Shown here: one piece after another, positions 1,212 to 37,564 of the stretch
Layout: every line of letters begins with the position of its first letter
How positions within the stretch are numbered: the stretch's first letter is position 1
NCBI GenBank assembly: GCA_028571455.1
Contig: JAPVVG010000237.1
Location: 1 to 39,702 of the forward strand
Reading direction: 5' to 3'
From: Desulfobacteraceae bacterium
Lineage (GTDB): Bacteria > Desulfobacterota > Desulfobacteria > Desulfobacterales > ETH-SRB1
Length of the DNA: 39,702 nt
Program-made: the position numbers and the translations under genes
Notes under the pieces: model-generated
Database searches by the model: none
What the model was told of the DNA's origin: nothing
Seen by the model: the letters and a program-made list of their open reading frames with translations, nothing else

Positions 1212-1682
1212 TTAACCGGATTCAATTGTCTCCAGCAATTCAAGTATTTCGCTATTTAACGGAATGTCGGACATTGATCGGCCGTAATGCACAAAACGAA
1301 GTATTCCCGTCTTATCGATAATCATTTGGCAGGGCAGTCTTCCCAGCTTTAGCACTTTGACTTCTTGTCCATAGAGTCCTGAGAGAGTGTGTTCCGGATC
1401 AGGCAGACCGACAAATAGTAAATTTTCTTTTGTCCAGTATTCCTGAAAAGCCTTCGTATTTTCCGGACCAACAACTAAAACTTCAGTATCCAGATTCTTA
1501 AAGCTTTCATAATCCTGACGCAACTGCGCCATATGCCTGCGGCAGAAGGGTCAAATAAATCCGCGATTGAATACAAGCAGTACATTTTTTTTATTGGCGA
1601 AATTGGAGAGAGACACTGCATTTCCATGAATATCTTGTGATGTGAATTCAGGTGCCTGTGTGCTTATACTTACCTTGGCCAT
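1212..1682 (-). CDS. Peroxiredoxin-like (AhpC/TSA) protein, putative selenoprotein with in-frame UGA at codon 44
   Basis: ATG at 1682 is in frame with the listed ORF 1212..1532. Translation: MAKVSISTQAPEFTSQDIHGNAVSLSNFANKKNVLLVFNRGFI[UGA]PFCRRHMAQLRQDYESF... The UGA (1551-1553) sits where the family has the catalytic Cys of RGFxCPFCRxHxAQL. Confidence 0.85.
1524..1553 (-). promoter_or_regulatory. Putative bacterial SECIS hairpin directly downstream of UGA
   Basis: Minus strand: TGA-CCCTT-CTGCCGC-AGGCATATG-GCGCAG. CTG(C)CGC pairs with GCGCAG with one bulged C and a 9-nt loop; the loop starts 12 nt after the UGA. Confidence 0.5.
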
Positions 1683-1746
1683 GAAAGCTCCTTCCTTAAA
1701 TATGTCTTCTACTTATAATTCAAATCAAGTTTAGTTGCCCCTGATT

Positions 1747-34583: not shown

Positions 34584-36359
34584 CTATCTCCCCAGTTTTT
34601 GCTCTCGTTGAGAAGTCACAACTCTCTTGTAATCTTCAGCACCACGTGCAAATGTCTTACGCCAACATTCAACCAACTTGGGGTCTTCACTAGTTGGTCG
34701 GGGCGTTTGTAACGGAATTCGTACGCGTGAAGGGATTGTAACCGCTTCACCGATAACAAGTGCTTCACCTGTTCGCAGTGATGGAAGCAAGTCTATGAGG
34801 CTGATCAAGTTGTCTGGGGCTGACGATTTCACAATCGATTGATCGGTCGAGTTGGTTAGCCTCAGTGCGATGAAGGTTCCAACCTGCGCTAATATCGTTT
34901 CGGCAATCTCAGACGGCCTTTGAGAAATAATCATTGCCCCAACGCCAAATTTACGGCCTTCTTTGAAAATACTCTCGACTGCATCCCTTGCGTAGTTATT
35001 GGCTCCAGATTTATTGAGATAAGAGTGAGCCTCCTCGAACGCGATGAAAAGCGGTCTCTGCCTCCCAGTGTATGGTTCATTCCTTCCCCAAAACATACTA
35101 TCAAAAACGAAACGAGTGATGAGGCCAACAGTTATGTCAAGAACCCCAAAAGGTACGCCTGCCAGATCGAGAATCGTAAGTCTCTCCTCACCACCAATCC
35201 AATCATTCAGAAGATCGTGCAAATCCTTTGGTGATGTGGCATCAGAGTAGTCACCAGGATGAAACAGAAAATCATACGCTGAATCCCTGAGTCGACTTAT
35301 TAGTCGCTTTTCGTAAACGTAGAACTCTTGATAGAGTTTTGACTTATAGGGGGCAGCAGCCCCGACTGCATAGGGTTTAAAACGGGGTGGCTCAAGAGTG
35401 TTATAATCGCCATTGCTTTCGATGAGTGCTTTGTCCTTGGTCTGCTTCTCAGCGGTCGCTTCGCTGAACGTTGCATTCAGCCACCAATAGATGTGATACC
35501 AGAGTTCTCTGACATTGAATGGTATAGGCGAATCAGCAGAAACTCGATCAGAATCAACAACTCCCGATTTTAATGAGCCTACATTCGCCTTTTTTCTTTC
35601 AACCACTAGCTCGCGCAGTTTTCTGTACTCAGGGCGTTGGTCATCCTTGGGTACGGCACCCACCAGAAAAAAAGCGAGTTCATCAAATGTCATCAGCCAG
35701 AAGGGGATATGCAGTGGATGCGTTGCATCTTTGATTCTGAATACGCGGGACCGCGGGAATGCCGTGGCATACTCCCCATGGGGATCGACTAGGATGACTC
35801 TTGATCCCGGATAATCGTCCAAGATCGCCTTTAAAACACTCACTGTGGTGTTGGACTTTCCACTTCCTGTCGACCCGAAAATTGCGCAGTGGCGCAAAAC
35901 AAGCTTGTGAATATCGGCACTAACGCTCAAGTTTTCGGATGAAGAGTGCTTTCCGATCTCTATAGAACCGGCGTCTTTCCTCGCATATATGTCGAACAAA
36001 TCACGTTCGGTCACAAGATGAACTTCATCGTTTATTGTCGGATATGTGCCGACGCCTTTCTGAAAGTCCTCATCTCCAATTTTTTCTCCAACAAGTTGCA
36101 CCGACAAGAATCTCGATCCTTGATCGTATGGACGACTTTCGTCCGTGGCTGCACTCGGTGTATTGCTAACCGCTGAGACGATTCCGTAGATGCTGATATT
36201 ACCCACTGGAAACTTCACAAAGGTTCCGATTTGGCCAATCTTATAGAGTCGGCCATTGATTATCGGCGCGGCTGAGGGAATAGTGCTCGATATCTCGACT
36301 TCAACTGTGCTTGAGTCAACGCGAATGACTTTACCCAAGTATGTGATGTCGCTGATCAT
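34584..36359 (-). CDS. herA: HerA-type helicase/translocase ATPase
   Basis: AIFGSTGSGKSNTTVSVLKAIL, SRVILVDPHGEYA, LFIAFEEAHSYL, EGRKFGVGAMIISQRPSEI. Confidence 0.9.
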   Translation of the reverse strand: MISDITYLGKVIRVDSSTVEVEISSTIPSAAPIINGRLYKIGQIGTFVKFPVGNISIYGIVSAVSNTPSAATDESRPYDQGSRFLSVQLVGEKIGDEDFQKGVGTYPTINDEVHLVTERDLFDIYARKDAGSIEIGKHSSSENLSVSADIHKLVLRHCAIFGSTGSGKSNTTVSVLKAILDDYPGSRVILVDPHGEYATAFPRSRVFRIKDATHPLHIPFWLMTFDELAFFLVGAVPKDDQRPEYRKLRELVVERKKANVGSLKSGVVDSDRVSADSPIPFNVRELWYHIYWWLNATFSEATAEKQTKDKALIESNGDYNTLEPPRFKPYAVGAAAPYKSKLYQEFYVYEKRLISRLRDSAYDFLFHPGDYSDATSPKDLHDLLNDWIGGEERLTILDLAGVPFGVLDITVGLITRFVFDSMFWGRNEPYTGRQRPLFIAFEEAHSYLNKSGANNYARDAVESIFKEGRKFGVGAMIISQRPSEIAETILAQVGTFIALRLTNSTDQSIVKSSAPDNLISLIDLLPSLRTGEALVIGEAVTIPSRVRIPLQTPRPTSEDPKLVECWRKTFARGAEDYKRVVTSQREQKLGR

Positions 36360-37564
36360 TTGGCCCCCAAGTCTTGGCTATTCTGTTTTCCTGAACTTGC
36401 GACGAGGAATGCAACCAGCGCGTTGAAATCGCCCAACGTTAATTGCGACTTATCATCGCTCCAAAATGTTGTGGTGTTTTCGTTCGGCTTTGTCGCCTCT
36501 TTGTTGAAATGCCACTCGCCCAACTCGCCATTGATGATGGCTTTTGTTGGCCCGAATGCATGAAGATTCAGATATGCCGAACAGGATTTATGGAGGCTTT
36601 CTAAATCGGCGTCATTATAGATAAATGCGATGACGAACAAACGGTTGTTCTGGCGCATACAATTGAAAATAATCTCATTAATGTGTTGGTCGGAAAAGGA
36701 ATAGCCACTGATAGCGAATAGTAGTTCCCCGCCGAGAAGATAGGACCGCATCCTGTCAAAGTAGGCGATGAAAGGTTGCTTTCGAGAGGAGTCGTATTTG
36801 TCTTTGGATGGATATATGACGAGCTCATTCTTAATATCTGAAACCTTTCCGATGTTGCCAATCCTGATGATGCGATAGGATTTCGTTGTTTCGGAGAACC
36901 GCCAGAACCAGTTCAAGGAGCCGTGAATCTTCCAAAGGCGAATCCAATTCTTCGTGAGGTCCCCTGCTTTGACGAGATGGTCTACGCTCTCCTGCCAGAA
37001 GAAGGGCTCAAACGAGCCAACGAATCCATCGAAGTAGGGTATCTCACTGGCTTCAAGCGACTTCTCGATAACAAGATCGTAGTTGGTTGTGAAGACTTCC
37101 TTGGCGTAATCTCGATTGAGCAGGTTGTACCAGGCGAAGAACCGTTTTGTTGTGGCAAGCGGGGCGCTCGCCTCCTTCTCTGTGATGATTTTATAGATAG
37201 CTCTGCAAATCTCTCCATCAATGGTACTTGCATCCTTACCGCAAACACCGAGATATTTTCTGGTCTCGCTCTCGTTGGTAAGTTCACGAATTCGTCTTAG
37301 TTGATTGAGTATGTCCTCGATGTTGACAGCGCGCCCGTTTATCAGCGTGGCCAGATCGTCCTTAACGATCCGTAATGTCTTCGCCGAGCTCTCGTTTAGG
37401 GCTGTATCGACGCTGCGGGTCAGCGTTGTAATATCTGGAATGCCAAGAGCACAGGACGTACCGGCACCAAAGAAGAAGCCGATGTTCTTGGAGTAGGACA
37501 AATGATTCTTCAGCTCTCTTATTTCTCGAAGTACATCAAATTTCGTCATCGTGCCGCCTCTCAT
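36356..37564 (-). CDS. SIR2-like NADase domain protein (SIR2-HerA system)
   Basis: GFFFGAGTSCALGIPDI, EVFTTNYDLVIEKSLE, RLWKIHGSLNWFWR, LLFAISGYSFSDQHINEII; overlaps herA by 4 bp. Confidence 0.88.
   Translation of the reverse strand: MRGGTMTKFDVLREIRELKNHLSYSKNIGFFFGAGTSCALGIPDITTLTRSVDTALNESSAKTLRIVKDDLATLINGRAVNIEDILNQLRRIRELTNESETRKYLGVCGKDASTIDGEICRAIYKIITEKEASAPLATTKRFFAWYNLLNRDYAKEVFTTNYDLVIEKSLEASEIPYFDGFVGSFEPFFWQESVDHLVKAGDLTKNWIRLWKIHGSLNWFWRFSETTKSYRIIRIGNIGKVSDIKNELVIYPSKDKYDSSRKQPFIAYFDRMRSYLLGGELLFAISGYSFSDQHINEIIFNCMRQNNRLFVIAFIYNDADLESLHKSCSAYLNLHAFGPTKAIINGELGEWHFNKEATKPNENTTTFWSDDKSQLTLGDFNALVAFLVASSGKQNSQDLGAK

Follow-up and report, generated by a model that had tools for sequence, protein, structure and literature searches.

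A reading frame interrupted by one TGA

The window analysed (the whole stretch of DNA, 39,702 nucleotides) is contig C237 of an incomplete genome assembly (2.9 Mb in 267 contigs, 97% complete). On its minus strand, a frame opening at ATG 1682 meets a single TGA (1551-1553) before ending at the TAA at 1212; with that TGA taken as selenocysteine (Sec), a protein of 156 residues is obtained that bears the UxxC motif U44-P-F-C47 (Table 1). Standard ORF calling returns 1212-1532 only (minus strand, 106 aa).

Table 1. Features of the selenoprotein locus and the grounds on which each was assigned
Feature	Position	Strand	Basis or remark
Predicted selenoprotein CDS, 156 aa plus TAA stop	1212..1682	-	Prx-like UxxC oxidoreductase; frame, Pfam, orthologues, fold
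In-frame TGA, predicted Sec44 codon (codon 44), motif NRGFI-U-PFCR	1551..1553	-	Kept in all orthologues found
TGC, Cys47, second residue of U-P-F-C	1542..1544	-	Sole other Cys common to the UPxC clade
Shine-Dalgarno-like AAGGAG	1688..1693	-	Sequence; 5 nt upstream of ATG 1682
Arg115 codon (GR[LM]P), almost invariant	1338..1340	-	Opposite an Arg of Bcp1 in alignment
Best SECIS candidate hairpin, 6-bp stem UGGCGC/GCGUCA, AGUU loop (1522-1525)	1516..1531	-	Loop 25 nt after UGA
Hairpin of the earlier note, CUGC-C-GC / GCGCAG, 9-nt loop	1524..1545	-	Outside the published model's spacing and energy limits

The read-through product matches AhpC-TSA (PF00578) with 77.4 bits against a gathering score of 26, over residues 7-130 and hence across the TGA, and AlphaFold, supplied with an alignment of 21 sequences, predicted a complete thioredoxin/peroxiredoxin fold (pLDDT 94). 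An earlier note on this DNA had placed the start chosen by ORF callers at 1532, followed the frame from ATG 1682 through the UGA and proposed that read-through restores a thioredoxin-fold N-terminus; all three statements were borne out, the coordinates were right and the frame contains no further interruption. Judged from its sequence, 1212-1682 almost certainly encodes one whole redox protein that uses UGA for Sec at its active site. The TGA triplet serves as an ordinary stop in 4 of the 17 long ORFs of the window, so the genetic code has not been globally changed.

No neighbouring family was common to three or more of the loci compared, and the gene neighbourhood thus offers no operon clue and suggests no partner. 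Elsewhere in the window, positions 4666-26439 are likely to form an Ssp/Dnd-type phosphorothioation defence island (SspB, SspC, SspD, an SspF-like kinase fusion, SspG, a DndH/SspH-like protein and a distant second SspC-like ATPase), and at 34584-37564 a HerA helicase adjoins a SIR2-domain protein, making up a SIR2-HerA-type defence pair.

Conservation of the TGA among orthologues

Orthologues were found in four other Desulfobacterales MAGs (92-97% identical) and in five Chloroflexota MAGs (49-60% identical), all with TGA at the Sec44 codon. Searching 395 Desulfobacterota genomes with a profile yielded 13 more full-length UPxC orthologues, each with exactly one TGA, together with a set of UPxA/UPxT proteins that likewise carry it. 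The finished megaplasmid of Thermomicrobium roseum (NC_011961.1) also contains an orthologous frame with the same TGA; in RefSeq only its 42 residues up to the TGA are annotated, as a 'hypothetical protein', the remainder being without annotation. Since every orthologue found retains the TGA, and these come from several phyla, its position in frame is not due to chance. Searches of phage and viral collections gave no relatives.

TGA is one base away from the Cys codons, and a sequencing or assembly error converting TGC or TGT into TGA could in principle produce the same picture. The earlier note had likewise envisaged that resequencing might show TGC or TGT; the same TGA was, however, seen independently in the assemblies of ~23 other genomes, one of them finished (NC_011961.1), which excludes such an error to the extent that its probability can be regarded as negligible. 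A second alternative is that UGA is a genuine stop, the ORF at 1212-1532 being the relic of a pseudogene or a separate short protein. ORF callers do split the gene at this point, and the same genome holds, on contig C58 (8300-9300; L106/L019/L021), a partial and decayed second copy of the gene and of its Mut7-C neighbour, disrupted by an early stop and the deletion of 1 base; over the part covering the neighbour, nucleotide identity is 93%. At the locus studied here, in contrast, the same UGA recurs across phyla, the protein is conserved on both sides of it, synonymous codons are frozen in the downstream hairpin (see below), and the ORF at 1212-1532 would by itself have neither the active site nor the initial strands. 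This conservation argues against a pseudogene as it does against a sequencing error, and real termination at UGA44 is considered very improbable. The dN/dS ratio among the near orthologues was uninformative, as too few changes precede the UGA.

The split in the tree between the UPxC clade (which includes one UPYT member) and the UPxA groups is moderately supported (82/89). In the comparison with Cys-containing orthologues proposed in the earlier note, no Cys codon was seen at the Sec44 position among the UPxC orthologues found; only a distant branch (KQS) provides a pair in which one member has TGC (L089) and the other TGA (L090). The genome under study also contains a second gene with an in-frame TGA (contig C54:1309-1743, minus strand; L020), 37% identical and with the motif RSFS-U-PYAR. 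Its product lacks Cys47 and, indeed, any Cys, which would leave Sec as the one redox-active chalcogen residue of this type; a hairpin, CAUCUG-GGC-CAGAUG, places its loop 21 nt after that UGA.

As a tentative proposal, to which we give somewhat less than even weight, the UPxC proteins with a HYG(R/H)SMSDIP-type tail may form an unmodelled and apparently Sec-only subfamily with members in Desulfobacterota, Chloroflexota and Thermomicrobia and with the UPxA group (in which Sec has no partner Cys and the protein can be Cys-free), also present in this genome, as its relative. If so, the lack of a Cys orthologue would suggest that the selenium chemistry is not replaceable by Cys, and would explain why the proteins were missed by searches for Cys/Sec pairs and by annotation pipelines. 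In practical terms, a well-supported selenoprotein subfamily is added whose genes are split or left out by current annotation, even in the finished T. roseum replicon, and the presence of UPxC and UPxA forms in one genome provides a compact natural pair for analysing the role of a resolving Cys at a Sec active site.

Decoding genes and SECIS candidates

The earlier note had pointed to selA, selB, selC and selD as genes to look for, and had named a genome without selB/selC as grounds for rejecting the Sec reading. Three of them are present in the same genome: selA (610 bits), selB (372 bits; a single full-length SelB) and selD, which is split over two contigs and has its own UGA-Sec codon in GSGUASK. 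For selC only a 27-nt 5′ piece was recovered (contig C159:1-27; L063), identical to the tRNA-Sec of the relative G006; the contig has its end within the tRNA-Sec gene at this point, and a complete gene was not found in this incomplete assembly, the 3′ 71 nt being missing. Among the family relatives, 13 of 16 have a tRNA-Sec scoring >70 bits, and four of the five Chloroflexota genomes carrying the orthologue have a canonical one; no complete tRNA-Sec was found in the relatives G012 and G003, which are selenoprotein carriers. A 47-bit match in the Chloroflexota genome G410, first taken as tRNA-Sec, proved to be a tRNA-Ser and was not counted.

Decoding of UGA as Cys by a selC* tRNA-Cys(UCA) is a genome-based and partly tested proposal for some Desulfobacterales (PMC7609411), which raises the alternative that UGA44 is read as Cys by a tRNA of this type together with SelB* and CysRS*. 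The sister genomes G013 and G015 do contain a second UCA tRNA fitting that description (92 nt, UCA anticodon, U73 and A1:U72), at L102:537-628 in G013 and as two identical copies 2.3 kb apart in G015 (L103:426-517 and 2752-2843); in G008, a second UCA tRNA (92 nt, U73; L104:327-418) also fits selC*. In the genome under study, in contrast, no selC*-type tRNA and no second selB were found in the incomplete assembly, all matches to the tRNA-Sec model being ordinary tRNAs, and the fragment on C159 is of the tRNA-Sec type (G1). Moreover, G006, G001 and four Chloroflexota combine the gene with a canonical tRNA-Sec and have no selC*-like match listed. Decoding as Cys is therefore highly unlikely, and the reading of UGA44 as Sec is preferred.

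The published model of bacterial SECIS elements specifies a loop of 3-9 nt with G in one of its first two positions, a stem of 4-16 bp, a distance of 16-37 nt from the UGA and an MFE of at most -7.5 kcal/mol (PMC13188914). The hairpin at 1516-1531 agrees with it (AGUU loop, stem of 6 bp, 25 nt from the UGA; -8.1 kcal/mol when the flanks are included and -7.3 for the stem alone). The hairpin with a 9-nt loop put forward in the earlier note can form, but its loop lies 12 nt after the UGA and its energy (-5.6 kcal/mol) is no better than that of shuffled sequence, so that it is probably not the SECIS. The two structures overlap and are mutually exclusive. Over 20 non-redundant sequences, pairing was maintained at 95.8% for 1516-1531 (17-66% in slid controls) and at 93.3% for 1524-1545, and a covariation test on the same sequences revealed no compensatory double changes in either; covariation therefore does not decide between them, while spacing, energy and the freezing of synonymous codons do. 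On these grounds, the SECIS is most likely the hairpin at 1516-1531.

Codon choice provides evidence at the RNA level. The synonymous codons at positions +8 to +10, counted from the UGA, are frozen across phyla (Ala+8 GCG in 20/20, Gln+9 CAG in 20/20, Leu+10 TTG in 21/22), with z values of 6-17, measured against each sequence's own codon usage, compared with about -1 to 0 at Pro+1, Asp+13 and Gly+28; the codons of many other conserved residues vary freely. The one sequence that departs from this at Leu+10 (L030) carries an AGUU(G) loop above a GCGC stem whose register is shifted. The codons of Phe+2, Cys+3 and Arg+4 are also constrained, so that a role for the 5′ portion of the region is possible as well, perhaps as a lower stem. 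Without the codon freeze, the evidence from the hairpin alone is weak: an equally good hairpin follows ~2% of the window's TGA triplets, the 49-nt stretch, taken whole, folds no better than shuffles, and z-scores of hand-picked hairpins are biased upwards. An Rfam search of 1000-2400 gave no match. Codon choice is stronger evidence for a SECIS than the fit of the hairpin.

Predicted fold, proposed chemistry and relation to known families

The best fold matches in the PDB are Bcp1 and AhpE (TM about 0.88). In the alignment with Bcp1, Sec44 corresponds to the Thr of TxxC and Cys47 to the peroxidatic position, and the Arg of Bcp1 that aligns with Arg115 is presumably the conserved Arg of peroxiredoxin active sites.

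The best explanation is that the locus holds a gene standing by itself, whose product is a selenoprotein of the peroxiredoxin-like/redoxin superfamily, probably located in the cytosol. SelB carrying Sec-tRNA-Sec, bound to the UGGCGC-AGUU-GCGUCA hairpin downstream, would decode UGA44 as Sec. Sec44 would then occupy the N-terminal end of the active-site helix, where a thioredoxin CxxC has its first Cys, and its selenolate could attack an oxidised substrate (a disulfide, or a peroxide); Cys47 would resolve the product into an intramolecular Se-S bond, and a thioredoxin system would reduce this bond. The analysis establishes the frame, the conservation of the UGA, the Sec genes, the constraint on the RNA and the predicted fold; Sec insertion itself is inferred, as is the redox cycle (from motif and fold), and the reductant and substrate are equally conjectural. 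Taken as a whole, the explanation of a SelB/SECIS-decoded selenoprotein with a Sec44-Cys47 redox cycle is very probably correct.

The UxxC motif suggests a thioredoxin-style selenenyl-sulfide oxidoreductase working by thiol/disulfide exchange; such chemistry is favoured since UxxC is the motif of the Prx-like thiol:disulfide oxidoreductases of the literature. A competing view, which concerns the chemistry and not the decoding of Sec, is that the protein is a Sec peroxidase, i.e. a peroxiredoxin proper. The nearest folds are those of peroxiredoxins, Arg115 at the peroxiredoxin position is almost invariant, and the sister clade UPxA keeps Sec but has no second Cys, which could suit a 1-Sec peroxidase. 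However, it is Cys47 and not Sec44 that occupies the peroxidatic position, and the known Sec peroxiredoxins are TxxU rather than UxxC proteins (PMC13188914); this view appears the less likely of the two. The earlier note's reading of the UGA as Sec in a peroxiredoxin-like protein is thus supported with two corrections, one to the SECIS hairpin and the other restricting 'peroxiredoxin-like' to the fold, since UxxC points to thiol/disulfide exchange.

Prx-like UxxC selenoproteins have been reported since about 2005, and Prx-like thiol:disulfide oxidoreductases (PF00578, UxxC/UxxU) are known from Geobacter, Syntrophus, Desulfotalea and the Sargasso Sea (PMC1088965, PMC1794560, PMC13188914). The protein described here resembles the latter in its PF00578 domain, its UxxC motif and its host groups, which include Deltaproteobacteria; likened by domain, motif and hosts only, the UPxC/HYGxSMSDIP subfamily may be the same clade as the Prx-like reference WP_010940744.1 or a sister to it. 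No model of NCBIfam 20.0 reaches its cut-off on this protein. The best match, to the SelL-related redox proteins (NF040769; 77 bits, residues 9-102), indicates related AhpC/TSA proteins but falls well short of the 120 bits set as the curated cut-off, and SelL has UxxU where a single Sec is present here. The Sec peroxiredoxin PrxU (NF040737; TxxU, Eubacterium acidaminophilum type) belongs to the same fold superfamily (20.6 of 270 bits), although in the protein studied here Sec sits three residues earlier, at the Thr position, in UxxC and not TxxU. The nearest solved folds and sequences are the Bcp1 and AhpE peroxiredoxins and ResA (PDB 3drn, 4x0x and 1st9), with about 20-25% identity to Bcp1 and AhpE in the fold matches; these are Cys enzymes, whereas the protein here is predicted to use Sec. 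The kind is therefore already known (PF00578 UxxC selenoproteins), and the UPxC clade is a further member of it that reaches no NCBIfam cut-off.
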